Shown here piece after piece: positions 23,153-42,148 of a stretch of DNA of 45,415 bases. The stretch is from Tindallia sp. MSAO_Bac2 (GTDB lineage Bacteria; Bacillota; Clostridia; Peptostreptococcales; Tindalliaceae): the NCBI GenBank assembly GCA_003838145.1, contig QYZZ01000083.1, positions 1-45,415 on the forward strand. The letters run 5' to 3'. The notes below the pieces were generated by a model. It saw only the letters and a list, made by a program, of their open reading frames with translations. It was not told where the DNA came from and made no database searches. How positions within the stretch are numbered: position 1 is the stretch's first letter; every line of letters begins with the position of its first letter. Made by a program: the position numbers and the translations under genes.

Positions 23153-24766
23153 TTACTCCTGATCGGATGCTTCAGTCTTAAACAAAATACCAAATCCTTG
23201 AACCAACAGCACAATTGCCAGAATGAAAAGCAAGACAGGGAATGCTACCAAAATCATGTTTCCTGTAGCAAGATTGGTTCTTGCCAGGAAGAAAAGCGCC
23301 AACAGGGTAGCTGCAAACATAAATACGATTGGAACAACAAACATCCCATATCCTTTGTTGATCTTTTTCAGCCAAACAGCAACTGCCATGAGTGCCAGTG
23401 CCGCCAACAACTGATTTGCAGAACCAAAGATAGGCCAGATTAATTGCCAGCTGGTGACCGCCAGTAAACCGCCAAGCACAACGGTTACGCCGGTAGCTGC
23501 ATACATATTGGTGAAAATCGGTTTCTTTTCTGTTGGATCTTCAGGCTCAAAAAATTCCTGAAGAATAAATCTTCCCAATCGGGTTGCCGTGTCAAGACTG
23601 GTTAATGCGAAAGCTGATACAGCCAACGCTACGAAGGATTTACCTATTTCAAAGGGTATTCCAAAACTGGTCATAAAAACACCGATACCATCAGAAAACA
23701 CGTTAACCGGACCACCGTCGGCTAATAGTTCTGTTAGTCTTGGGCCAGCTACATAAGCTGCAGTAATAATTGCAATGGTAGCCAGAACTCCTTCAATAAG
23801 CATACCACCATATCCGACCAGCTTGGCATCACTCTCTTTTGTAAGCTGTTTCGATGACGTACCGGATCCTACCAAGGAGTGAAATCCGGAAATGGCTCCA
23901 CAGGCAACAGTAATAAACAGCATTGGGAATAAGTACTGTCCGCCAACATTAAAGCCCATATATCCTTCCAACTGAATGGTAGGACGGGTAATCAACAGTC
24001 CCAAAACGGCTCCTGCCAGCATTGCATAAAGAAGGTATGCATTGAGGTAGTCACGTGGCTGCAATAGTATCCATACAGGTGTTACGGAAGCAACCGCGAT
24101 ATATACAAGCAATAACGCTATCCAAACGTTTCGGGATAGAATAAGCGGAAACATGTTACCCAGAGCAATACACACTAAAAGTAGAGCAACACCAATAACA
24201 GAACCAATTTTAAGCGAAAAGCCTCTGCGGTAAACAAGGTTTCCAAAGCCAATTGCCAGAATAATGAAAAGTACAGAAGCCGTTCCGGCAGCCGGCACAG
24301 AAACAAAGGTGTTGGCAACGATATTGGTGAATGCTGCAACAACCAGCAGTAGTGTCAGCCATGCAAAAATAGAGAACAGACGTTTTCCTTTTCTCCCCAT
24401 AGTCGACTGAATTACTTCTCCAATGGATTTACCTTCATGCCGCACGGAAGCATAAAGGGAGCTGTAATCCTGTACGCCTCCAAAGAATATACTACCCACA
24501 ATGATCCAAAGCAGCACAGGGATCCATCCGAATATTGCAGCTGCAATGGGCCCGACTATCGGACCCGCTCCAGCTATGGAAGCAAAGTGGTGACCCAGCA
24601 GAACTGCAGACGAAGCCGGGACATAATCGACACCATCACCGCGTGTATGAGCCGGTGTCGGTTTGGAATCATCGATACCCCATTGCTTTGTAAGCCAGGC
24701 ACCATAGGTCACATAAGCAACAGAAAAAGCAATAATTGATATAAGAACTAATATTAATGCGTTCAT
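23153..24766 (-). CDS. cstA: CstA-family carbon starvation protein, probable pyruvate/peptide transporter
   Basis: A 537-residue polytopic membrane protein with about 14-16 hydrophobic segments. The CstA signature segments are all present: VPASSAVLLGHHFASIAGAG, GPIVGPIAAAIFGW, FFGGVQDYSSLYASVRHEG and GFHSLVGSGTSSKQL. The length is that of the shorter Gram-positive type rather than the ~700-residue E. coli CstA or BtsT. In E. coli, BtsT and CstA import pyruvate, and btsT is controlled by the LytS/LytR-type BtsSR system. A LytS/LytR-type pair lies two genes upstream here, so pyruvate uptake is the best guess. The ATG has AAGGAGGAAG upstream, 30 bases after the preceding gene. Confidence 0.93.
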   Translation of the reverse strand: MNALILVLISIIAFSVAYVTYGAWLTKQWGIDDSKPTPAHTRGDGVDYVPASSAVLLGHHFASIAGAGPIVGPIAAAIFGWIPVLLWIIVGSIFFGGVQDYSSLYASVRHEGKSIGEVIQSTMGRKGKRLFSIFAWLTLLLVVAAFTNIVANTFVSVPAAGTASVLFIILAIGFGNLVYRRGFSLKIGSVIGVALLLVCIALGNMFPLILSRNVWIALLLVYIAVASVTPVWILLQPRDYLNAYLLYAMLAGAVLGLLITRPTIQLEGYMGFNVGGQYLFPMLFITVACGAISGFHSLVGSGTSSKQLTKESDAKLVGYGGMLIEGVLATIAIITAAYVAGPRLTELLADGGPVNVFSDGIGVFMTSFGIPFEIGKSFVALAVSAFALTSLDTATRLGRFILQEFFEPEDPTEKKPIFTNMYAATGVTVVLGGLLAVTSWQLIWPIFGSANQLLAALALMAVAVWLKKINKGYGMFVVPIVFMFAATLLALFFLARTNLATGNMILVAFPVLLFILAIVLLVQGFGILFKTEASDQE

Positions 24767-24795
24767 GATCTTCCTCCTTCTTTATTATTCCAGTT

Positions 24796-25302
24796 CTATG
24801 TGCTTAAAACGGGTGAATAAACCTCTTGAACCTCCTTTCCTCTTTTATTATAATAAACGCTCCCGGTAGCAATATTCACTGCTACGAGGCGTATGTAAAC
24901 CCAACCCTTCAATCCAAAGGCAAAGCTTTTATTATACTTCTTTTTTTCAAGCTGTTGGATAACATTTTCTTTTGGATCTATTTCAGTGACAATCGTTCCG
25001 GTTATTATAGTAGACATATGTTCGTCGTGAGGATTCACTTTTTCCTCTGCTGCTTTCAACAATATATTCCAGTAATCATTAAGTTCTAATCCAGTCAATA
25101 CATCTATTTTCTTCACAAAAACATGTTCGTGATTTTCCATGGCATAAATTTTTAATTTTTTGCTGGCAAAATATCGTTCACTTCGAATTTTAGATTTCGC
25201 ATATAAATCGAAATTCATCTGCTGGTACTCATGATTTCTTTCCATATCAAAATATTGTTGAAGCCTGTCTTCAATTAATTGCAGATATTTCTCACGTTCC
25301 AT
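24796..25302 (-). CDS. uncharacterised 168-residue protein upstream of cstA
   Basis: I do not recognise this protein. It is soluble (no signal peptide or membrane segment), rich in Lys, Glu and Tyr, and begins with a helical stretch (LQLIEDRLQQYFDMERNHEY). Later segments include FASKKLKIYAMENHEHVF, a central acidic helix and a beta-rich C-terminal half (FAFGLKGWVYIRLVAVNIAT). An AAGGAGC site precedes the ATG. It lies between the LytR-type regulator and cstA on the same strand, 30 bases before cstA, and is almost certainly co-transcribed with it. A role in regulating or assembling the transporter is only inferred from position. Confidence 0.8.
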   Translation of the reverse strand: MEREKYLQLIEDRLQQYFDMERNHEYQQMNFDLYAKSKIRSERYFASKKLKIYAMENHEHVFVKKIDVLTGLELNDYWNILLKAAEEKVNPHDEHMSTIITGTIVTEIDPKENVIQQLEKKKYNKSFAFGLKGWVYIRLVAVNIATGSVYYNKRGKEVQEVYSPVLST

Positions 25303-25457
25303 AAAACGCTCCTTTTTTGTATAAATATACGCTGAAAACGCTTTTTCTATTTAAGTAACTATATTATATTAGTAGGCTGACCGGAATATTCGCATAACTC
25401 TCTAAATTGTAGTGAAAAAGGTTTAAATGGTCGTCTTTTGCCACTCAACGGTAAGGG

Positions 25458-26237
25458 CTATCCAATAATGTTCATTCTTTCCTTGAAACTTCTGGTATTG
25501 CTTCTGCTCACCGGAATCACCCGGTCGGTATTATCTTCAATTTTCAGCTGCAAGGCATTGTTAAACCAGTACAGAACTTCTTTAACTTCTTCAAGGTTAA
25601 CAAGAAAGCTTCTATGGGTTCTGAAAAAAGGGGGGTCCGGAAGTTTTTCCTCCCATTCCGTCAAGGTGAGATTAGAAAAAAAGTCTCCTTTTTTCGTTAT
25701 CAGCTTAGTACTCCCTTCCTCAGTTTCTATATACAGAACCTCTTCCAAGTCTAATACATAGAGACGGTCATCCCTTTCCAGGGTAAGCTTTTTCCTTCGG
25801 TGATCCTCCTTCAGATGCTCCTTTAATAGTTTTTTCACCTCAGATAAAGGACTATCAACCTGCATTTCTTTATTTTTTTCAAACTCACGCTCCATGTGGG
25901 AAAGCGTCTTTTCAAAACGTTTTTCATCAATGGGCTTTAGCAGATAATCCACTGCTGCGTATTCAAATGCTTTAAGAGCGTACTTGTCATATGCAGTTAC
26001 AAAGACAATTTTTGAAGAGTAACCCCTGCTAACCATTTCTTCAGCAATATCAAGTCCGGTTAAATCCTGCAGGTGAATATCTAAAAAAACCACATCAAAA
26101 GCTTCTTTTTTCAATAAGTTCAATGCGGTTTCACCACTATTTGCCTCTTCGATCACAACGTTATTCCCAAATTCTTCAATTAATGCCCGCAGCTGTTTTC
26201 TGGCAGGTACTTCATCATCAACGACGAGTATTCTCAT
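25458..26237 (-). CDS. LytTR-family response regulator (LytR/BtsR type)
   Basis: A 259-residue response regulator. The receiver domain (1-120) has the acidic pair VVDDE, the phospho-acceptor Asp in VVFLDIHLQ, the Thr in FVTAY and the Lys in YLLKPID. After a charged linker the LytTR DNA-binding domain (about 150-255) contains DDRLYVLDLEEVLYIETEEG, FFRTHRSFLVNL and the C-terminal VIPVSRSNTRSFKERM. The ATG at 26237 is chosen because the ATG two codons earlier abuts the AGGAGG site. It starts 10 bases after the sensor-kinase stop. Its probable target is the downstream gene pair ending with cstA. Confidence 0.93.
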   Translation of the reverse strand: MRILVVDDEVPARKQLRALIEEFGNNVVIEEANSGETALNLLKKEAFDVVFLDIHLQDLTGLDIAEEMVSRGYSSKIVFVTAYDKYALKAFEYAAVDYLLKPIDEKRFEKTLSHMEREFEKNKEMQVDSPLSEVKKLLKEHLKEDHRRKKLTLERDDRLYVLDLEEVLYIETEEGSTKLITKKGDFFSNLTLTEWEEKLPDPPFFRTHRSFLVNLEEVKEVLYWFNNALQLKIEDNTDRVIPVSRSNTRSFKERMNIIG

Positions 26238-26247
26238 GTTCATCCTC

Positions 26248-27942
26248 CTATGCCCCTATCGGAAAACGAACCTCTACTTTGGTCCCTTGTCCTTTAAGGC
26301 TCTTAATGTTCATTCCGTAGCTTTCACCATATAAGGTGGTCAGCCTTTTGTGAATGTTCATGAGTCCAACTGTTTTTCTTTCACCGTCCTTTTTTTCCTC
26401 GGCCAACAACACAGGGATTCGGTTTTCCTCTATGCCAGTTCCATTATCTTCAATAGATACCAGGTAATCCCTTCCAAGAATCGAGGACGAAATTTTAACT
26501 ACTCCCCCTTCCTTTTTTGGGAGAATCCCATGCAGCACGGCATTTTCAACCAAAGGCTGTAAAATCAATGGTGGAACCTTAATTGTGTGCCAGTCTTTAA
26601 GATCGTATTCCACTTTAAGGCGGTCTCCGAAGCGAGCTTCCTCTATCTCAAGATAGGATTTTATATAAGCGATTTCCTGCTCAAAATCCACCAGTGCCCC
26701 CTGGGTGGAAAGGTTTTTTCTGAACAGGATGGAAAGTGAGTTTAATAGAATTTTTGCCTTCTTTCCATCAAAGAGCATAAAGGACTGAATGGTGTTGATG
26801 GCATTAAAAAGAAAATGAGGATTGATTTGAGCCTGCAATGCCCTCAGTTCAGCATCCACCAGCATTTTTTCCTGGGCCTCCACACGACTGACTTCGATTT
26901 GAGTGGAAAATAACTGGGCAAGACCAAGAGCAAGCTCTTCATCCAAATGACTTATTGAGTGTTCTGCTTCCCGATAAAGCTTAAGGGTGCCGACCGTTTT
27001 GTCCTGCTCCTTTAACGGGACCACTATTGCAGCCTTTAGCGGACATTCCTGATAATGACAGTTAATTTCTTCTTTCTTGCTGATAATTCGATGTGCTCCG
27101 CTTTTTACCACTCCTAAAGTTGCACTGGTCGCAATAGGTTCGCCAGGGCGATGGTGATCTGCACCCAGTCCTCGATGAGCAAGGATTTTCCTGTCATCTG
27201 TGATGGAGACAGCTGCAATATCAATATCCTGATAGATAATTTCCACAACTCTTCCCGCTACTTCTTCTTTTAGTCCTTTTCTGAAGTAAGGTAACGTAAG
27301 GTTGGCAATTTTCAGGACTTTTTCTGCATGGCTTGCAGCTATTCTTTCCTGTTCTTTGTAAATGTTCTCCAGGATGCCAACAAACAATGCGATGCCTATA
27401 GAGTTAACAATTACCATGGGAACAACAATCACCTGAACAAGAGCAAGTGCATCGGCAAAGGGCCTTGCAATCAAAAGGATAATCAACATTTGTGCTGTTT
27501 CTGCCAGCATGCCGATAAACAGTGCATATTTCCATTTATTTTTCATGTTGCGAATGTAAAAATAGAAATGTCCACCCATTAGACCTTCAACTATCGTTGA
27601 GACTCCACAGGCAACCGCCGTAAACCCGCCGATATCGATTAAAAAACGATGACCTCCTGCGATCACTCCCGCTCCAAAGCCAACCAGGGGTCCACCGAGG
27701 AGAGCGCCAACCATAACACCTACCACCCTGGTGTTGGCCAAAGCGCCCTGAACCGGTATGCTGTAATAGGTTCCAAGAATTCCTATAAAACCAAAAACAA
27801 CTGCAAGGGCAAGTTTATCCAAAACTCTGGCATCTTTTTTTATAATAAGACGTTTAAATATTCCTATTTTCGATATAATCACTGCCAAAATGATGATTAA
27901 GCCCAACCGATTAATTAAATCAAAAATCATTTCAACTATCAT
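26248..27942 (-). CDS. LytS/BtsS-type sensor histidine kinase
   Basis: A 564-residue membrane sensor kinase. The N-terminal ~190 residues form a 5TM-5TMR_LYT region (GVMVGALLGGPLVGFGAGVIAGGHR is part of its hallmark). A GAF-like domain follows (about 220-350; ISDDRKILAHRGLGADHH, CHYQECPLKAAIVVPL). The His-kinase box has the phospho-accepting His in NPHFLFNAINTIQSF, and the HATPase has the N-box LQPLVENAVLHG and GTGIEE. Family members sense pyruvate or murein-related signals. The ATG has AAGGTGA upstream. With the LytTR regulator it probably controls the nearby CstA-family transporter. Confidence 0.94.
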   Translation of the reverse strand: MIVEMIFDLINRLGLIIILAVIISKIGIFKRLIIKKDARVLDKLALAVVFGFIGILGTYYSIPVQGALANTRVVGVMVGALLGGPLVGFGAGVIAGGHRFLIDIGGFTAVACGVSTIVEGLMGGHFYFYIRNMKNKWKYALFIGMLAETAQMLIILLIARPFADALALVQVIVVPMVIVNSIGIALFVGILENIYKEQERIAASHAEKVLKIANLTLPYFRKGLKEEVAGRVVEIIYQDIDIAAVSITDDRKILAHRGLGADHHRPGEPIATSATLGVVKSGAHRIISKKEEINCHYQECPLKAAIVVPLKEQDKTVGTLKLYREAEHSISHLDEELALGLAQLFSTQIEVSRVEAQEKMLVDAELRALQAQINPHFLFNAINTIQSFMLFDGKKAKILLNSLSILFRKNLSTQGALVDFEQEIAYIKSYLEIEEARFGDRLKVEYDLKDWHTIKVPPLILQPLVENAVLHGILPKKEGGVVKISSSILGRDYLVSIEDNGTGIEENRIPVLLAEEKKDGERKTVGLMNIHKRLTTLYGESYGMNIKSLKGQGTKVEVRFPIGA

Positions 27943-28117: not shown

Positions 28118-28456
28118 TTATGGCGAATAAATCTGAAGCAAGTAATAGCCAAATCCCATCAGAAACAGCATCCCGATTATTATTACCCATTGATACCTGA
28201 AAAATAAATTTTTCAGTGTTTTTTCTTCCACTTCTTCAAAGGATATTTCTATTGGTGGAAGCTTTTGACGTCGATGGCTGTTAATCATTGGATTTGGTTT
28301 CATGCGACCTTTACACCCGTAGGTAGTGCACTTTTCATTTTCCAGCCAGCACTCTCTATGGTGTGGCATTTTACAATCAGAACAGATAATACTATCTTCA
28401 CCGATTCTTATCGGTGCCTGACAGTAGGGGCATACGACCTGATCTTTGTAGGCCAA
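28118..28456 (-). CDS. tail-anchored prokaryotic RING-finger protein (candidate E3)
   Basis: A 112-residue protein. Residues 9-48 form a complete binuclear zinc finger of prokaryotic RING family 1 type, with ligands C9, C12, C25, C28, H33, C36, C43 and C48, including the typical MPHHRECW and CTTYGC segments. A polar linker (50-85) leads to one C-terminal transmembrane helix (about 90-109), so the RING should sit on the cytoplasmic face. The start is a TTG, with GGAG 11 bases upstream, 6 bases after the JAB gene stop. In the same operon as a UBL, E1, E2 and JAB it is a natural candidate for an E3-like scaffold recruiting the E2 to the membrane. That role is inferred; such fingers also occur outside ubiquitin-like operons. 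Confidence 0.85.
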   Translation of the reverse strand: MAYKDQVVCPYCQAPIRIGEDSIICSDCKMPHHRECWLENEKCTTYGCKGRMKPNPMINSHRRQKLPPIEISFEEVEEKTLKNLFFRYQWVIIIGMLFLMGFGYYLLQIYSP

Positions 28457-28462
28457 ATCACA

Positions 28463-29467
28463 TCACTCTCCTATCGGGTGATACAATAACAGTCTTTGTC
28501 CAATCTCCAGGCTGTCCGGATCCTCTAAGTTGTTTAGCCTCATAATATATTGATATTCGAAGGGATTATCGTAAAATTGCCGACTGATAGTCCATAGGTT
28601 GTCCCCTACCTGAACGTTATAAAAAAACAACCTGTCTTCTGTAAAAGTTTCAAACTGAGTTTCCAGATGTTGTAAAGATGTTTGGAGCTCCCGGATTCTT
28701 TCCTGTTGTTCATCGATCACTTGGTGCAATTCATCGACCTGATTCATACGGGCTGTTTCCTCCTCATCCCTTACGGACGGAGAATTGTTACTCAATCTGT
28801 GAGCATTGGTAAGCATTAGTAAGAGTAGGCTCATCGCAAGTCCGGCCGCAAGCCATTTTTTAATCGGGTCTGCAGAGGCACTGTTTTCTGTTTGTTGTTG
28901 CAAGGGCCCGGTTTTTTGCTGCGATAATTCACGACTTTTACTATGTAATTTCTTGTTTTCTTCTGAGGTATAATGGTTATAGGTTTCATGTTCTGCAGCA
29001 ACAACTTCCAGCTGCTCCCATTTATAAAATCCCCGCTTTTTTTGAACGGGGTCCACTACATAAGCCACCTGCCATGGTAAGTTGAAAAAGTTTTTATGGA
29101 TAAATAAATCATAATTGGACATAAAAACACCAAAACCCGGGTGAGTGTGAAACCAACCCACCATTTTTTCCTCGGGATAATGACGTTCTTTATCCCTGTG
29201 CAGCTGATCCCAGGTTTCGTGAGTAAAGGTAAGTGATGTTCTGTCAGCCGCTGTCTTTTGAGCGATGATCATACCAGTAATTTTCAGACAGGTACCCGCA
29301 GGGGTATCTTCTGTTCTGCCTACCAGTATTCCTCCCAGCTCTTTTTTCATATCCGTTGCAGCAAACCGGTCAATTTGCTGCCGGACCTCTTTATCCAGAT
29401 ATATTTTCAATTTCTCAAGGGGTGGTTGCAGTGCCTTAGATTCACCCAGTTCAATATCAAAATCCAC
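28463..29467 (-). CDS. JAB/JAMM isopeptidase with transmembrane helix and LysM domain
   Basis: A 334-residue protein of unusual design. Residues about 20-155 are a JAB/MPN metallopeptidase with every catalytic element: E43 in KKELGGILVG and the zinc motif HTHPGFGVFMSNYD, giving H107, H109, S117 and D120. Residues 160-200 are a polar linker. One transmembrane helix follows (about 205-222) with KK on its N-terminal side. Then come a coiled coil (about 236-277) and a C-terminal LysM domain (about 283-330; VQVGDNLWTISRQFYDNP). Without a signal peptide the peptidase should be cytoplasmic and LysM outside on peptidoglycan. In the operon it would mature the UBL or remove it from targets. The start is GTG with AAAGGAG. 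Confidence 0.92.
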   Translation of the reverse strand: MDFDIELGESKALQPPLEKLKIYLDKEVRQQIDRFAATDMKKELGGILVGRTEDTPAGTCLKITGMIIAQKTAADRTSLTFTHETWDQLHRDKERHYPEEKMVGWFHTHPGFGVFMSNYDLFIHKNFFNLPWQVAYVVDPVQKKRGFYKWEQLEVVAAEHETYNHYTSEENKKLHSKSRELSQQKTGPLQQQTENSASADPIKKWLAAGLAMSLLLLMLTNAHRLSNNSPSVRDEEETARMNQVDELHQVIDEQQERIRELQTSLQHLETQFETFTEDRLFFYNVQVGDNLWTISRQFYDNPFEYQYIMRLNNLEDPDSLEIGQRLLLYHPIGE

Positions 29468-29509
29468 GGGCTGTCTCCTTTCCAGGATTACCGGAATTCA
29501 CAGCAAATT

Positions 29510-30082
29510 TTAAAAAAGCTTAATGTCTACATCCGATTTTTCCGAGTTGATTTTTCTTTTTGATGGTGTTAATAGAATATCAAAATTGTCTTTTTGCGAA
29601 TCACCAACATTAACTTCCGGCTCTGGCTGCCATAAATCAACGTTATCCGCCGGAAAACGATGAACATTTTCCTTTGCCCATCTGGAGGCTTCAATATTTA
29701 ATGGGCTTTTAGGGTTGTAGTTTTTGTATTGAATCATGTCGCCAATCTGAATGATAATGTCTACTAAACGCTCCCCTGCTCCCCAAAAATCTCCAATGCA
29801 CACCTGATATCGAAAATTAGGATGAAAAATAGGTGTCTTCATTTGACACTTGGGTTTTTCCCGGGGATAGTTGGCATGAAGATAAACTTCCACCTGATGA
29901 CGGTTTGCCAGCGTTGGTTTTCCTGATTTTTCATCCATTTTATATCCTTTCACCTTAAAGGTTACAAGGTATTTTTCTGGCGGGTCACCTGCTATGGGTT
30001 CAACATCAATAAAAGGATGTCGGGAAAATTCGAGTTTAAGGCTTTTATAGTCTGATTCCAGCCGCCTTAGTCGTGCATTCAT
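29510..30082 (-). CDS. E2-like ubiquitin-conjugating (UBC-fold) enzyme
   Basis: A 190-residue UBC-fold protein. After an N-terminal helix (NARLRRLESDYKSLKLEF) come the beta strands, with HQVEVYLHANYPREKPKCQM (the E2 Y-P-x-x-x-P strand). The HPN motif (87-89) in IFHPNFRYQVCIGDFW is followed six residues later by the predicted active-site Cys95. The helix after it contains the E2-like SPLNIEASRWAKEN. It thus resembles eukaryotic E2s closely, with a ~45-residue polar tail. It would receive the UBL from the E1 encoded 7-14 bases upstream as a thioester. The ATG at 30082 is better spaced from GAGAGGTGA than the ATG two codons earlier. Confidence 0.92.
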   Translation of the reverse strand: MNARLRRLESDYKSLKLEFSRHPFIDVEPIAGDPPEKYLVTFKVKGYKMDEKSGKPTLANRHQVEVYLHANYPREKPKCQMKTPIFHPNFRYQVCIGDFWGAGERLVDIIIQIGDMIQYKNYNPKSPLNIEASRWAKENVHRFPADNVDLWQPEPEVNVGDSQKDNFDILLTPSKRKINSEKSDVDIKLF

Positions 30083-30095
30083 TTCCATTCACCTC

Positions 30096-31274
30096 TCAAT
30101 ATTTGTTATCCAGTATTTTTTCGATATCAGATGTCATTTCCATATATACAATTTCTTTGCCGGAACGTCCCTGATATATTTCCCCGGGGGGAAATCCGAT
30201 TTCTTTCAGGCTCATGTCCGCATAGGCTTCCTGACCTGTAAACTGATGCGCCATTAAGATTTCTCTTTCTTCACCACATTCTGAGCAGATGGCATCTTCC
30301 AGGCTGACTTCCATCAGCGGCCGAAAGAGCGACTCTTTATCTCCGCAGATACAATGAGCCTCAATGGCAATTTCCATATCCGTTTCCAGGACTGCCTCTT
30401 TAAGATTAAGTCTTTCACGTATGATTTCAACCATCTCTCTAAGTGTTGTACTTTCAGACCTCCGGTGGACTTCCACTATCGGCTCCCAGGTTTCATGGCT
30501 ATAGCATTCTTCATTTCTGGGATATGTTACAACATACGAGTCATGGGATAATCCGTTAAATACAAAGCCTTTTCCCGTAAGCGGCTGCAGATCTGCATCA
30601 GGATGCAATAGTTTAACCGCTTCCTGTACCTGAACCCCGGCAATGACAGAAGCTGTCGTTGGAGTTGTCGGAACCTTGCCTTCCATCATTTCCTTCCGAC
30701 TTAACAGGGAACAGGACTTTCGGAAATTCAGCAATTTATAATCAGCCTGACTCATGGTGCATTCATAACAGGCACTCTGCGGCGGGACAAAGACCCGCGC
30801 AAACCCCTGAAACACTTCAATGGCTCCATCAATCCAGGGTGTATTGGTTTTCCAGCATTTCTGATTGATGGACAGTCTTGCCTCCCGATTGTCCAGCCCT
30901 CCTAAAACCAGATCTGCGTGTCGGAAAAAGCCTTTCCCCACCTGGCTGATGATGCTGCCCTGCAGCGGTATTGCTGCGATTTCCGGGTTGATTTCATTAA
31001 TTCTTTCTGCCGCCACAACGGCCTTCGGTCTGGCTTCATCAGCCTCGCGGTACAGTACGGCTCTTGAAAGGTTTGAGTTTTCAATGTGATCCATATCAAC
31101 AATAAGGATTTTTCCTACCCCCAGCAGGGCCAGATTTTTCAGAATCTCATTTCCGATAGCTCCCGCTCCGACTACCATCACTGTTGCACTTTTCAGTTTT
31201 TTCTGGTCCCACCACGGAATTAGCCGCAGTCTTGCATAGCGATCTTCCTGCAGCTCTTCCCTATTCATATCCAT
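30096..31274 (-). CDS. E1-like ubiquitin-activating enzyme (ThiF/MoeB/UBA family)
   Basis: A 392-residue protein. The ThiF-fold adenylation domain (about 10-230) has the ATP loop GAGAIG (36-41), acidic residues D60/D62 in LIVDMDHIE, R71 in NLSR, K84 in RPKA, and D128 in LGGLDNREA. A CYEC pair (C169, C172) and the candidate thioester Cys C188 in FRKSCSLL are followed by VPTTPTTASVIAGVQ, as in E1 enzymes. The C-terminal region adds a possible zinc-binding segment (C308, C310, C330, C333) and ends without known domains. The ATG lies one base after the UBL stop, so translation is coupled. It should adenylate the UBL C-terminus and pass it to the E2 next in the operon. Confidence 0.93.
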   Translation of the reverse strand: MDMNREELQEDRYARLRLIPWWDQKKLKSATVMVVGAGAIGNEILKNLALLGVGKILIVDMDHIENSNLSRAVLYREADEARPKAVVAAERINEINPEIAAIPLQGSIISQVGKGFFRHADLVLGGLDNREARLSINQKCWKTNTPWIDGAIEVFQGFARVFVPPQSACYECTMSQADYKLLNFRKSCSLLSRKEMMEGKVPTTPTTASVIAGVQVQEAVKLLHPDADLQPLTGKGFVFNGLSHDSYVVTYPRNEECYSHETWEPIVEVHRRSESTTLREMVEIIRERLNLKEAVLETDMEIAIEAHCICGDKESLFRPLMEVSLEDAICSECGEEREILMAHQFTGQEAYADMSLKEIGFPPGEIYQGRSGKEIVYMEMTSDIEKILDNKY

Positions 31275-31275
31275 A

Positions 31276-31551
31276 TTATACGCCTGCCGTAATTTCAGGC
31301 TGAAGCCTCAGCACATCATCTTCCTGCACTTCTGCTTCTGCCAGTGTTTGTTCGTCCGTTAACTGCTTTCCGGATGCTTTATGGATAAATTTATAGCTGA
31401 TAGGATTGCCGTCCGGGCCAGTTGTGGGGAGTTCCATTTTCTCCGCCAGCTTAACCAGTATACGATTTACCGGAATATCTGTCGGAAGACTTGCCTGCTG
31501 CTCTTTGTTTCCGGTGGTGTCGATAATATACACATTTACTTTTTCTTCCAT
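31276..31551 (-). CDS. YukD/EsaB-like ubiquitin-like protein
   Basis: A 91-residue beta-grasp protein, first gene of the E1-E2-JAB-RING operon. The pattern is VNVYIIDTTG (strand 1), SLPTDIPVNRILVKLAEKM (strand 2 and helix), ISYKFIHKASGKQLTDEQTL and EDDVLRLQPE, the YukD/ubiquitin arrangement. The C-terminus reads PEITAGV, not the canonical GG: one Gly is followed by a single Val that the operon's JAB peptidase could remove. The start at 31551 has AGGAGG 6 bases upstream, while the longer frame has none. It is the presumptive modifier. If not conjugated, it could act only as a non-covalent partner, as YukD does in type VII secretion systems, though no other secretion genes are near. Confidence 0.9.
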   Translation of the reverse strand: MEEKVNVYIIDTTGNKEQQASLPTDIPVNRILVKLAEKMELPTTGPDGNPISYKFIHKASGKQLTDEQTLAEAEVQEDDVLRLQPEITAGV

Positions 31552-31588
31552 TTTACTTCCTCCTCTTAACGAATTCATTGGTCTGTTT

Positions 31589-31618
31589 ATTGTATCATAG
31601 TTCCCAGATGACGGGCAA
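31589..31618 (-). promoter_or_regulatory. sigma-A-type promoter of the ubiquitin-like operon
   Basis: On the minus strand TTGCCC (31613-31618) and TACAAT (31589-31594) are 18 bases apart, between the vor terminator and the UBL start. It indicates that the operon is transcribed independently of the upstream metabolic operon. Confidence 0.55.
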
Positions 31619-31630
31619 ACAGTGGAATAT

Positions 31631-31668
31631 AAAAAAACCTGCCGGAGAGATCATAATAAACCGGCAGG
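31631..31668 (-). terminator. terminator of the buk-ptb-vor operon
   Basis: The perfect 8-bp GC-rich stem CCTGCCGG / CCGGCAGG with a 15-base loop is followed on the minus strand by TTTTTTTATATT. It stands 19 bases after the gamma-subunit stop. Confidence 0.9.
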
Positions 31669-40098: not shown

Positions 40099-41328
40099 TT
40101 ATTCTGTTTCCCTTTCCATAATCTGGATTTCAACAGGGTCCGGCCGGACTGAAATATCACTGGAAGCCGTTTCAATGTTCATTGGAAGCCATACCCTTGG
40201 AGATACCTGATGGCTGCCAGCCTCCAGATCTTCCAGATTAACAAATAACATGATTGTGCGTGTATCCAGATTTTGAACAGTGCTGTCCAATGCTGTCAGA
40301 CTCACTTCGAAAAATTCCGGCAGAGCCTCTTCGTCAACCACCAAGTCAGGATCCAGGTTTTCATACCTTAAATTATCCCGAGAGACTTCCAGCGTATGTT
40401 CAGACATTGCCTGCACTTCAATCTCCACCTGAATTTCCGTTTCTGAGTGCGGTTGTACTCCCTCAGGAAATACTATCGGAATCCTCGTTTGAATGTTTTC
40501 GGTAAGGTTTTCCAATTCCAGCGTTTCTGTTCTCAGGCGGCTTACATTTTCAAGATTTCCCGGTTGTCCTTTAATGGTAACAGAAGTTGGGTCGCTGTTA
40601 ATTCTAACTATTTGGTAGCCTTCATCTCCCTGAACATTCAAATCCAGGTCCACAGGTACAGATTTCACCTGATCAATGGTTGCCTGAACGTCTACGAAAC
40701 TGGTTTTTACTTCCACCTGCTCCACTTCTTCACCTCTGCTGTTCAGCACCCGGGGCGGAAGGCTTCTGCTGAGATTTTCACTTTCATTGTTTAGCTCAAG
40801 CCAAACTACGATGGTTTCAATGGAGTTTACGTAGCTTTCAGGTCCCTCAACCCACACAGAGCCTGGCTGTACCCTGGTTTCACCCAGAACATAGCCGGAA
40901 GCAGGCGAACCTTCAATGCCCAGCTCCACTTCAATTTGTTTTTCGACGATACGTTCCAATTCCACGGTTACGTATCTGGGACTAAATTCCACCTCAACGC
41001 CACCGGGAACCGTAACATCAATCGGAATGGAATTGGTGCCTTCTTCATACCCTCTTAAGTCAATAGATGCATTGATATTATCCCTACTGACCCGATGAAC
41101 CTGGTCACGGTTTCCGGTTAAACGAACCCGTATGGTTGGCTCCGGATCACCATATACGACAAGGCCTGACTGACGAATAATATTTTCATTCACCAGGTCT
41201 ACCGGAATATTTAATTCTTCCCGGGTAATTCTTGGGTTGATGACACTCATTACATAAATCCACAATAAAAGCGCAAAAAGTATTGAAATGACTTTTGCAG
41301 CTAAGTTTTTACTTAAAAATTTACTCAT
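40099..41328 (-). CDS. cdaR: YbbR/CdaR, regulator of the diadenylate cyclase
   Basis: A 409-residue YbbR-domain protein. The ATG at 41328 has GGAGG 7 bases upstream and overlaps the end of cdaA by 8 bases. A single N-terminal transmembrane helix (about 12-30, VISILFALLLWIYVMSVI) anchors four tandem YbbR repeats that should lie outside (for example INASIDLRGYEEGTNSIPI and VPVDLDLNVQGDEGY). In Firmicutes CdaR binds and modulates CdaA. The usual third gene, glmM, does not follow here; the sigma-54 activator gene does. Confidence 0.92.
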   Translation of the reverse strand: MSKFLSKNLAAKVISILFALLLWIYVMSVINPRITREELNIPVDLVNENIIRQSGLVVYGDPEPTIRVRLTGNRDQVHRVSRDNINASIDLRGYEEGTNSIPIDVTVPGGVEVEFSPRYVTVELERIVEKQIEVELGIEGSPASGYVLGETRVQPGSVWVEGPESYVNSIETIVVWLELNNESENLSRSLPPRVLNSRGEEVEQVEVKTSFVDVQATIDQVKSVPVDLDLNVQGDEGYQIVRINSDPTSVTIKGQPGNLENVSRLRTETLELENLTENIQTRIPIVFPEGVQPHSETEIQVEIEVQAMSEHTLEVSRDNLRYENLDPDLVVDEEALPEFFEVSLTALDSTVQNLDTRTIMLFVNLEDLEAGSHQVSPRVWLPMNIETASSDISVRPDPVEIQIMERETE

Positions 41329-42148
41329 CTTTACGCCTCCACTTATATTTCCAAAACTTCCATTGCTGTTTTTCACTGATCTCAAAACTGTTGTCTATAT
41401 ATTTTTTTAATGTATCCACATCTAGAAAACGTGTTAACTTTCCATTTTCGGCTACTGAAATGGCGCCTGTTTCTTCCGAGACGATTACTACAATGGCATC
41501 TGATTTTTCTGTAACACCCAGTCCTGCACGATGCCGCGTTCCCAGCTCTTTGTTGATGCCAGGATTCTCTGTTAAAGGAAGAAAACATCCGGCTGCCATT
41601 ATTTTATTTTTTCTTATTACCACAGCACCGTCGTGCAATGGTGTGTTGGGAATAAAAATGTTTATCAGTAACGCCCTTGATACGGCTCCTGTAATCTGAG
41701 TTCCTGTTTCTATTACTTCATTAAGTCCGGTGTCTTTTTCGATTACAATCAGTGCACCTATTTTCTGGCGCGACAAAGAACCAGTGGCTTCACCAACTTC
41801 TTCCACCAGCCGGTTAATCTCTTCATGCTCAATATCCGCTATCGACTTAGTAAGGAACTTGGTGCGCCCAATATATTCCAGCGCTCTTCTAAGCTCCGGC
41901 TGAAACACGATCAGCAAGGCAATCAGTCCGACTGTCATGGTATTCCTGAGAATCCAGTTAATTACGTGTAACTGCAACCATTCACTCATCTGCGTAGCAA
42001 TCAGAAGAACCAAAATACCTTTGATAAGCTGTTGAGCTCTTGTCTCGCGTATCAGCATATATAATTTATAGAAGACAAAGGCAACAATAGCCATGTCAAC
42101 CATATCCCATATTCCAATGTTTCTTAAAATGTTCATTATTTCCTGCAT
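41321..42148 (-). CDS. cdaA: membrane diadenylate cyclase CdaA (DacA)
   Basis: A 275-residue c-di-AMP synthase. About three transmembrane helices occupy residues 10-85 (MVDMAIVAFVFYKLYML, GILVLLIATQMSEW, MTVGLIALLIVFQPEL). The DAC domain (about 100-250) has both catalytic motifs, PLHDGAVVIR and GTRHRAG. A short basic C-terminal tail (WKFWKYKWRRKDE) follows. c-di-AMP controls potassium and osmolyte balance and cell-wall homeostasis. It overlaps the downstream cdaR gene by 8 bases; the pairing cdaA-cdaR is conserved in Firmicutes. Confidence 0.95.
   Translation of the reverse strand: MQEIMNILRNIGIWDMVDMAIVAFVFYKLYMLIRETRAQQLIKGILVLLIATQMSEWLQLHVINWILRNTMTVGLIALLIVFQPELRRALEYIGRTKFLTKSIADIEHEEINRLVEEVGEATGSLSRQKIGALIVIEKDTGLNEVIETGTQITGAVSRALLINIFIPNTPLHDGAVVIRKNKIMAAGCFLPLTENPGINKELGTRHRAGLGVTEKSDAIVVIVSEETGAISVAENGKLTRFLDVDTLKKYIDNSFEISEKQQWKFWKYKWRRKDE

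Follow-up and report, generated by a model that had tools for sequence, protein, structure and literature searches.

The 45,415-nucleotide contig QYZZ01000083.1 of Tindallia sp. MSAO_Bac2 (hereafter the window; the host assembly comprises 2.48 Mb in 129 contigs) carries at positions 28118–31551 five neighbouring genes for a ubiquitin-like protein (UBL), enzymes of the ubiquitin-activating (E1) and ubiquitin-conjugating (E2) types, a JAB (JAMM) peptidase with a LysM domain and a RING protein. With a probability of about 60% we consider them a membrane-centred ubiquitin-like system of bacteria, which both conjugates and deconjugates its tag. That the five proteins form a conjugation cascade is very probable, and a role of this cascade in the cell envelope can reasonably be expected. 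A docking code provided by a short tail motif is proposed tentatively. Somewhat doubtful is the widest version of the idea, in which a membrane ubiquitin system of several phyla uses a SUMO-like code, so that tails of E2, of the wall-linked deconjugase and of an HtrA-like periplasmic protease bind UBL and the envelope state, perceived by LysM, protease and FHA domains, is read into tagging of membrane proteins. The anatomy of the operon, conservation of its residues, co-occurrence of its genes and the constraint on the UBL C-terminus were read directly from the sequences.

All five genes lie on the minus strand in the order UBL, E1, E2, JAB, RING, which confirms their common direction, for which the earlier note had given no strand. 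The gaps between them are 1, 7, 42 and 6 bp, so that of the former wording “overlapping or closely spaced” only the close spacing stands, as there are no overlaps. UBL (31276..31551, 91 aa) has a YukD-like beta-grasp fold (PF08817, E = 2.8e-9) and terminates with LRLQPEITAG-V. Its start is the ATG at 31551 with GGAGG approximately 7 nt before it, and an alternative open ATG is found earlier, at 31578. E1 (30096..31274, 392 aa) combines one ThiF adenylation domain (PF00899, 3.6e-56) with a C-terminal domain that contains a zinc ribbon. E2 (29510..30088, 192 aa; PF00179 UQ_con, 9.7e-9) possesses H89-P90-N91 and Cys97. The JAB gene (28463..29467, 334 aa, GTG start) encodes a peptidase domain (2e-9), a transmembrane (TM) segment at about aa 202–220 (28808..28864), a coiled coil and a LysM domain at aa 283–327 (28487..28621; PF01476, 3.5e-8). 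The RING protein (28118..28456, 112 aa, TTG start; PF14446 Prok-RING_1, 3.7e-11) has an N-terminal RING at aa 9–48 (28313..28432) with ligands C9, C12, C25, C28, H33, C36, C43 and C48, and a membrane helix at the end. Thus, all five products score above Pfam cut-offs, and the predicted complete set of components is supported. In NCBIfam no matching family scored above its cut-offs, and there was none for E2 or RING. PADLOC models recognised JAB (8e-11 at best) and E1 (4.9e-17 at best, models of E1-E2 type), leaving UBL, E2 and RING unmatched.

Residues named previously as functional were found in their places: Cys188 of E1, the HPN motif of E2 with a cysteine numbered then as 95 (97 if counted from the first ATG), E43, H107, H109, S117 and D120 of the JAMM peptidase and eight RING ligands. 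In counts that omit E1 open reading frames (ORFs) shorter than 300 aa, E2 domains shorter than 120 aa, RING domains shorter than 45 aa and rows with X, the candidate catalytic Cys188 of E1 (30711..30713) is invariant in 76/76 sequences, and H89-P90-N91 together with Cys97 of E2 in 64/64. The five JAMM residues are the same in 91/91 JABs, each RING ligand is kept in 69–71 of 71 relatives and all eight, in cross-brace order, are present in 81 of 85 RING ORFs. In its AlphaFold2 (AF2) model, E1 (mean predicted local distance difference test score 90.3) has a single adenylation domain with Cys188 in a loop inside it (residues 188–190 are a low-confidence stretch). Among the 60 of 63 matches listed for the E1 profile in PDB, enzymes of UBA1 and UBA7 type ranked first (from 1.3e-43), followed by UBA6, UBA3 and SUMO E1, and only after these eukaryotic-type enzymes came MccB (1e-29) and ThiF (3e-26). 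The model aligns through its C-terminal domain (to residues 382–383) with chains of SUMO E1, UBA3, UBA7, UBA6 and UBA1, and this domain, as modelled, is UFD-like; the alignments that extend into it cover approximately 290–312 residues with a root-mean-square deviation of 4.3–8.0, which means likeness of fold and says nothing of binding. For E2 the best 60 of 258 PDB matches bear names of eukaryotic-type E2s, and no name among the PDB matches listed for E1 and E2 assigns a protein to the bacterial family studied here.

Recurrence of the set was studied at two distances. In four of six other genomes of the family (G001–G006, compared with the window genome G000) the identical five genes stand in identical order at the same chromosomal site, and because of this repeated order and location the set exceeds what chance could give. 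Conservation within it is uneven: compared with G002–G005, window UBL is 92–95% identical, E2 75–83%, E1 65–75%, RING 49–70% and JAB 44–54%. The same pattern, a tag far better conserved than its enzymes, is characteristic of ubiquitin. Counted over seven relatives, UBL identity is 64–95%. With eight aligned UBLs as a query, scanning of genome contigs yielded 174 confirmed loci. Gene content was counted in the best 80 of them, a selection favouring near relatives; loci that duplicate others (L015, L019, L020, L033 and L034) are excluded from counts. UBLs of these 80 loci share 60–95% identity with that of the window and come from Clostridia (many Lachnospiraceae and Oscillospiraceae), Armatimonadota, WS1/Zipacnadia, Ignavibacteria, Bacteroidota, Chloroflexota (Roseiflexaceae), Synergistota (Synergistetes) and Phycisphaerales. 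According to record titles, the named isolates Anoxynatronum buryatiense, Clostridium weizhouense and Massiliimalia massiliensis also have the system. UBL is present in 80 loci, E1 in 73, RING in 61 (60 with all eight ligands), E2 in 57, JAB in 55 and an HtrA-like protease in 41. The earlier supposition that homologous operons might never keep the five genes together was checked and did not hold, since the full set is found in 46/80 loci (45 when RING must have its eight ligands complete), 34 times with the protease and 12 times without it; the window operon is thus of the compact form. Of the loci, 54 have flanks that reach 6 kb or more downstream and 1.5 kb or more upstream; all five genes are found in 38 of these, UBL-E1-RING in 11 and other combinations in five.

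Absence of E2 and JAB from many loci of Ignavibacteria and Bacteroidota (17 lack both nearby; 19 loci of all kinds) gave the impression that Ignavibacteria lack these genes. Genome-wide search in 11 of them rejected this idea, as both JAB and the E2 of the family were found elsewhere in 11/11 genomes (one E2 match runs across a stop), the two genes being adjacent on one contig in 10. Within the order and phylum of the host, E2 as a probe detected the system in 4/6 other family genomes and in 0/53 further order-level relatives, and across the phylum in 4/397 other genomes (one short match has an internal stop), with UBL in 2/397. In one of these genomes, G162, E2 and JAB lie on a 4.1 kb contig without UBL because the contig terminates inside E1. 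A quick E1 tree (76 rows, 12 of them unlabelled) required 9 changes of phylum label instead of 25.4 for shuffled labels, and therefore inheritance largely within phyla with some transfers can be assumed.

The C-terminus of UBL is extremely conserved. Among 84 UBLs 81 have PEITAG, one is truncated by the contig end and one each has PEMTAG and PEITTG, so that the glycine is conserved in all 83 complete proteins. It is followed by no residues in 29 cases, by 1–3 in 31, by 4–15 in 20 and by more than 15 in three, without any fixed sequence. A conserved end with a variable tail is expected for a trimmed precursor, and the operon itself supplies a peptidase, JAB; as judged from these sequences, UBL is probably trimmed to the glycine by JAB. 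Two UBLs run far past PEITAG, one (L051:8995-9582) into a 107-aa tail with a stretch that looks by eye like a zinc ribbon, the other (L056:8995-10008) into a 249-aa tail, and both resemble ubiquitin fusion precursors.

Two family genomes, G001 and G006, offer what may be regarded as a natural deletion test for UBL conjugation. Both retain UBL and JAB-LysM side by side at the usual site (L033 9368-10796 and L034 5638-7063), with 163 and 94 bp, respectively, between the frames, stop included. No match to E2 was found in either genome, and no RING in the stretches read beside UBL-JAB. The family E1 is missing as well: the best ThiF paralogue of G001 scored 2.3e-24 instead of ≤1e-182 typical for relatives, and G006 (75% complete) gave none. 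The two genomes come from different genera, in both of which the other members keep the full set, and two losses are therefore likely. They own both departures from PEITAG among the 83 complete UBLs, ending with EMTAG and EITTG. Nonsynonymous divergence (dN) of UBL is 0.058 for the pair G001-G000, compared with 0.020 for G002-G000 and 0.024 for G003-G000, and five of eight neighbour genes place G001 closer to G000 than G002. For G005-G006, dN of UBL is 0.065, compared with 0.012–0.036 in seven of eight neighbour genes and 0.084 in the eighth (c9). The ratio of dN to synonymous divergence (dS) in this pair is about 0.13, i.e. some constraint remains; in most other pairs dN alone was compared because synonymous sites were saturated. 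Based on these data it seems that the extreme conservation of UBL and its C-terminus depends on the conjugating enzymes. One can also imagine that UBL and JAB work as a pair of regulator and anchored binder without any conjugation, E1, E2 and RING being optional. The remnants of G001 and G006, in which JAB keeps its catalytic residues and its N-terminal motif (DFDIEL and DFEIEL), are in line with this, as is the residual constraint just mentioned. Faster change of precisely these UBLs, loss of their exact C-terminus and retention of the enzymes in the window and in four other family genomes speak for conjugation instead, and the enzyme-free pair is a very unlikely explanation.

The membrane-centred character of the proposed conjugation system follows its enzymes through different phyla. 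A JAB with a hydrophobic segment is found in 54 and the whole JAB-TM-LysM arrangement in 41 of 60 JAB-bearing loci (93 JAB ORFs), Pfam alone detecting LysM in 38/91 JAB ORFs. In the second loci of 11 Ignavibacteria/Bacteroidota genomes nine JABs look JAB-TM-LysM by eye and two do not. LysM as a local addition was thereby rejected, and the membrane and LysM parts are a hallmark of the family. The suggestion that RING together with membrane and wall domains sets the window operon apart did not survive, as both recur across phyla; RING proteins of prokaryotes, moreover, are already represented in Pfam by the family PF14446. In the genome G147 a separate small LysM ORF (TM by eye) follows JAB (L035 9628-10092, PF01476, 2e-12). 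It is well known that LysM domains bind peptidoglycan, and the deconjugase would therefore span the distance from cytosolic UBL to the wall, if its topology is as presumed. At least one hydrophobic segment (one to three) is predicted in 73 of 81 eight-ligand RING proteins, and in the AF2 model of the window protein (83.1; predicted template modelling score 0.47) the C-terminal helix occupies residues 89–110. Among 68 E2 ORFs 33 exceed 500 aa and have at least three hydrophobic segments; one of these long E2s, scanned with Pfam, ends with an FHA domain. Finally, the commonest extra gene near UBL, present in the 41 loci mentioned above, encodes an HtrA-like trypsin-fold membrane protease (L058:12241-13146 and 42 relatives, mostly with two hydrophobic segments; two members of the cluster scanned by Pfam were assigned to Trypsin_2). 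The opinion of the earlier note that the operon serves the envelope rather than phage defence is thus retained in its part concerning the envelope, coupling to which is plausible.

A short motif D-phi-D-I-x-phi (phi is hydrophobic) is common to the E2 tail, JAB N-terminus and tail of the HtrA-like protease. In the window it is represented by DVDIKL near the end of E2 (SDVDIKLF; 29516..29533) and by DFDIEL at the beginning of JAB (MDFDIELGES; 29447..29464). The strict pattern [DE][FVIWL][DE][IVL]x[LIVF], composed, like its looser variant, after the motif had been noticed, is found in 40/43 protease C-terminal tails (shuffles: mean 1.6, maximum 5), in 31/68 E2 tails (mean 3.1, maximum 10) and in 25/93 JAB N-termini (mean 1.2, maximum 4). 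The figure for E2 refers to tails only, since counts over whole E2s include some matches to strands of the UBC fold. Among other ORFs of the loci the motif occurs in 2/683 C-terminal 40-residue and 1/683 N-terminal 35-residue stretches; one of the two C-terminal background cases is an M48 peptidase encoded in an operon between E1 and JAB (L041 4498-5331, PF01435, 2.7e-18), which ends with SSELEIELK. In UBL the motif is absent (0/84), and in E1 it is found in 5/79 sequences, near the shuffled mean of 6.8. Related segments were seen by eye in E2 tails of Ignavibacteria. A scan of five whole genomes with a DNA pattern for the C-terminal motif gave six matches and two with the backward control and was uninformative because the pattern was too narrow: owing to a GTA codon it missed the window E2, and it also missed the protease tail of the L058 genome. 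SUMO-interaction motifs (SIMs) combine alternating hydrophobic with acidic residues, and the tail motif resembles them. JAB keeps it in G001 and G006, where UBL is the sole remaining partner, and UBL is therefore favoured as the binder.

The protease also suggests another assignment, general protein quality control, in which UBL would mark damaged membrane proteins for destruction, and HtrA-like and other peptidases would be its partners. The tail motif in 40/43 proteases and its presence in the M48 peptidase of one relative agree with this. In the window operon, however, JAB is the sole peptidase, and among the 45 neighbour clusters listed no AAA+ protease was recognised by eye, so that we take quality control as unlikely.

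If the proposed membrane system of conjugation and deconjugation does operate, its cycle may be as follows. JAB would trim UBL to PEITAG, whereupon E1 would adenylate the terminal glycine, accept UBL on Cys188 as a presumed thioester and hand it over, by means of its UFD-like domain, to Cys97 of E2. Membrane-anchored RING may then promote transfer of UBL to putative substrates on the inner side of the membrane, and the JAB-TM-coiled coil-LysM protein would remove it again. Since LysM can hold peptidoglycan, the state of the envelope could steer deconjugation. Motifs on E2, on JAB and, in other loci, on the HtrA-like protease would probably dock these parts to UBL in the manner of SIMs.

Several results weaken this scheme. 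By fold comparison the E1 model is closest, for its adenylation part, to MoeB (Z 29.7) and ThiF (29.1), then to SUMO E1 (27.8), UBA3 and others. The nearest structures found by Foldseek for the RING model are E3 ligases of Ring1B type, and the match is weak (E = 0.016); by VIA-align a chain of Ada2/Gcn5 (Z 5.5) ties with RING1B complexes (5.4), and ZZ domains are close, so that the domain as modelled is RING/U-box/ZZ-like. The hydropathy score of the window JAB TM segment, 1.56, is the lowest of the TM-JABs listed. Distribution of charges around the TM segments of JABs favoured the expected orientation in 26 cases and the opposite one in 26, with 15 ties; this count is undecided, and the topology given for JAB is a presumption. 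RING tails match the strict motif pattern in 6/85 cases (shuffles: maximum 4; reversed 11) and the looser one in 7/85 (mean 3.8, maximum 10), that is, without clear enrichment. Reversed sequences also score under the strict pattern (protease 3, E2 1, JAB 7, RING 11) because the motif is nearly palindromic. Motif counts are not independent, since members of one protein family are homologous, and the case therefore rests on three non-homologous families sharing the motif rather than on raw counts. Lastly, UBL and JAB that persist after loss of the enzymes may serve another use.

The general kind of such operons is known as a prediction. Burroughs, Iyer and Aravind are said to have predicted in 2011 prokaryotic RING E3s that work with E1, E2, JAB and YukD-like UBLs. 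The same five classes are present here, with RING of PF14446, a UBL of YukD type (PF08817) that has a conserved C-terminal glycine, and an E1 whose C-terminal domain is UFD-like in the model, all of which are features of that kind. Bacterial E1/E2/JAB operons were described by Iyer et al. 2006, and in the available part of that text a term search gave 0 mentions of LysM and 3 of RING. In Caldiarchaeum subterraneum, according to the available parts of PMC6043591 and PMC11354881, the operon likewise comprises a Ub-like protein, E1, E2, RING and a precursor-processing JAMM. PMC11354881, to the extent available, describes CsRpn11 as soluble and places the CsE1 cysteine in a distinct domain of about 60 residues, whereas in the present family TM and LysM are found in most JABs, and Cys188 lies in a short loop of the adenylation domain. 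By Pfam, UBL of the window matches YukD better than ubiquitin, unlike the Caldiarchaeum tag. C4HC3, the ligand order of the RING found here, is given in the same part of PMC11354881 as that of prokaryotic RINGs. In a comparison of the RING alignment profile with PDB ten weak rows were obtained; most of them were ribosomal or zinc-ribbon proteins, and BMI-1 was among them (E = 0.5).

Similarity of the YukD-like UBL and the ThiF/MoeB fold of E1 to other pathways raises the question of whether the tag is instead a sulfur carrier or an accessory of type VII secretion. Neither agrees with the linkage of E2, RING and JAB to UBL, and among 38 window ORFs scanned with Pfam no type VII gene (FtsK-like ATPase or WXG100) was found. 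The YukD of type VII secretion was accordingly rejected, the sulfur carrier, as well as a mobile or defence island, was set aside, and this explanation is hardly credible.

A defence against phages comparable to Bil or Bub, with UBL attached to phage or host proteins during infection, deserves more attention. The enzyme classes are the same as in Bil, which PMC13373217, in its available part, lists among anti-phage pathways, and UBL, E1, E2 and JAB are common to Bil and the window operon. The features of Bil given in the available part of PMC11354881 are different, though: BilA has two tandem Ub-like domains, and here UBL is single (91 aa); BilD has an inactive and an active adenylation domain with an 80-residue Cys domain, and here there is one ThiF stretch in 392 aa; BilB has a CEHH motif with E at +6 and H at +8 and +13 from Cys, replaced here by G103, G105 and D110; and Bil has four genes without RING, which is present here. 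None of these four features was thus found, identity with Bil was rejected and the earlier conclusion that the operon is distinct from Bil was upheld. Bub is likewise a bacterial ubiquitination-like pathway. In the same portion of PMC13373217 many Bub operons are said to be adjoined by CapW, CapH+CapP or CapK+CapS, CapW being a WYL-domain regulator that accompanies Bub and CBASS operons, and for Bub itself phage protection is described as not shown. WYL-WCX regulator pairs do exist near two relatives of the window operon (L013:2956-5927 and L015:8217-10350, by Pfam), adjoining E2 or downstream of the operon, and no WYL or HTH-STAS-GHKL protein was detected among the window ORFs scanned. A tblastn search with UBL in 72,556 plasmid and 50,697 phage records gave no match, and two pattern-limited scans of viral contigs (for E2 and UBL) confirmed no relative, which makes defence less likely. 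Moreover, in 7/7 family genomes read the genes or their remnant occupy one and the same place in the chromosome, next to genes for oxidoreductase and kinase, the agreement of the E1 tree with phyla is better than for shuffled labels, and the earlier statement that mobile genes and a convincing defence gene are missing from the neighbourhood was borne out, as PADLOC produced two generic matches among ten scanned neighbours. Altogether, a defence function appears quite improbable.

For the preferred membrane-centred conjugation system, the JAB-TM-LysM hallmark, HtrA-like partner, tail motif, PEITAG end with its loss and spread over phyla were not found in the literature searched. To that extent three points appear to be additions to a predicted kind: the LysM hallmark, the motif shared by the tails and the test offered by natural deletion. 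Full bacterial cascades of E1, E2, E3 and deubiquitinase are known mainly from antiviral Bil, which lacks RING, and from predictions. If our interpretation is correct, a chromosomal and probably non-defence cascade in named isolates would make bacterial uses of tagging outside phage defence testable, as well as the question of an origin of SIM-like docking separate from SUMO. A ready evolutionary control is provided by the constraint on the C-terminus of UBL and by its relaxation where the enzymes were lost.

The surroundings of the operon are metabolic and regulatory, and include subunits of 2-oxoacid:ferredoxin oxidoreductase, two acetate-kinase-family genes, phosphate acyltransferase, CstA, a LytS/LytT type pair, CdaA and YbbR. 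In G002–G005 the operon, and in G001 and G006 its remnant, is likewise enclosed by the oxidoreductase-kinase block on the upstream side and by CstA with a small neighbour on the downstream side. The LytS/LytT type pair, which flanks the window operon together with CstA, is confined to the window, G002 and G003 among the seven family genomes read; CdaA and YbbR are located some 9 kb upstream (window 23153-27942 and 40099-42148 for these neighbours). CstA of the sister genus is followed by a GlmM-like gene of the phosphoglucomutase family and a GlmS-like gene with GATase-SIS, which is a cell-wall context. The gap between the upstream oxidoreductase gene and UBL contains a terminator-like hairpin (31638..31668, minus strand; 8-bp stem, 15-nt loop, then a T-run). 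It was missed by the standard terminator scan because its loop exceeds the limit of 8, and was found once instead of 0 expected with a pattern composed after it had been seen. After the hairpin, upstream of UBL, there is a promoter-like site, TTGCCC-18-TACAAT, whose second hexamer is preceded by TG (31589..31618, minus strand); it is weak, as the region has 12 such sites and shuffles have 7.8 ± 2.4. With the hairpin and this site ahead of UBL, the five genes seem to form a separate unit.

Some further details concern individual components. Between RING and TM of the window RING protein there is a segment IEISF (28238..28252, minus strand), seen by eye in five family members and lying outside the motif patterns used, which is possibly a weak form of the tail motif. 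Very long RING proteins (705–818 aa) are encoded upstream of UBL in Clostridia (L064:5611-8064, L069:5621-8062, L083:4432-6735 and L084:5984-8098), and in the one scanned only a sub-cut-off match to an APC3-like repeat was detected besides RING. A 599-aa protein of G001 (L154:382-2181) has, by eye, an IscU-like N-terminus and a ThiF-like domain, and a similar long frame matches in G005. In L112:588-4239 a tandem pair of long E2 genes follows UBL on a contig without E1, and another contig of the same bin, L100, carries UBL, E1, E2, RING and JAB. In G382 an E2 fragment with a stop lies beside a DDE transposase (L016 4969-6493, PF01609), which is likely a recent loss.

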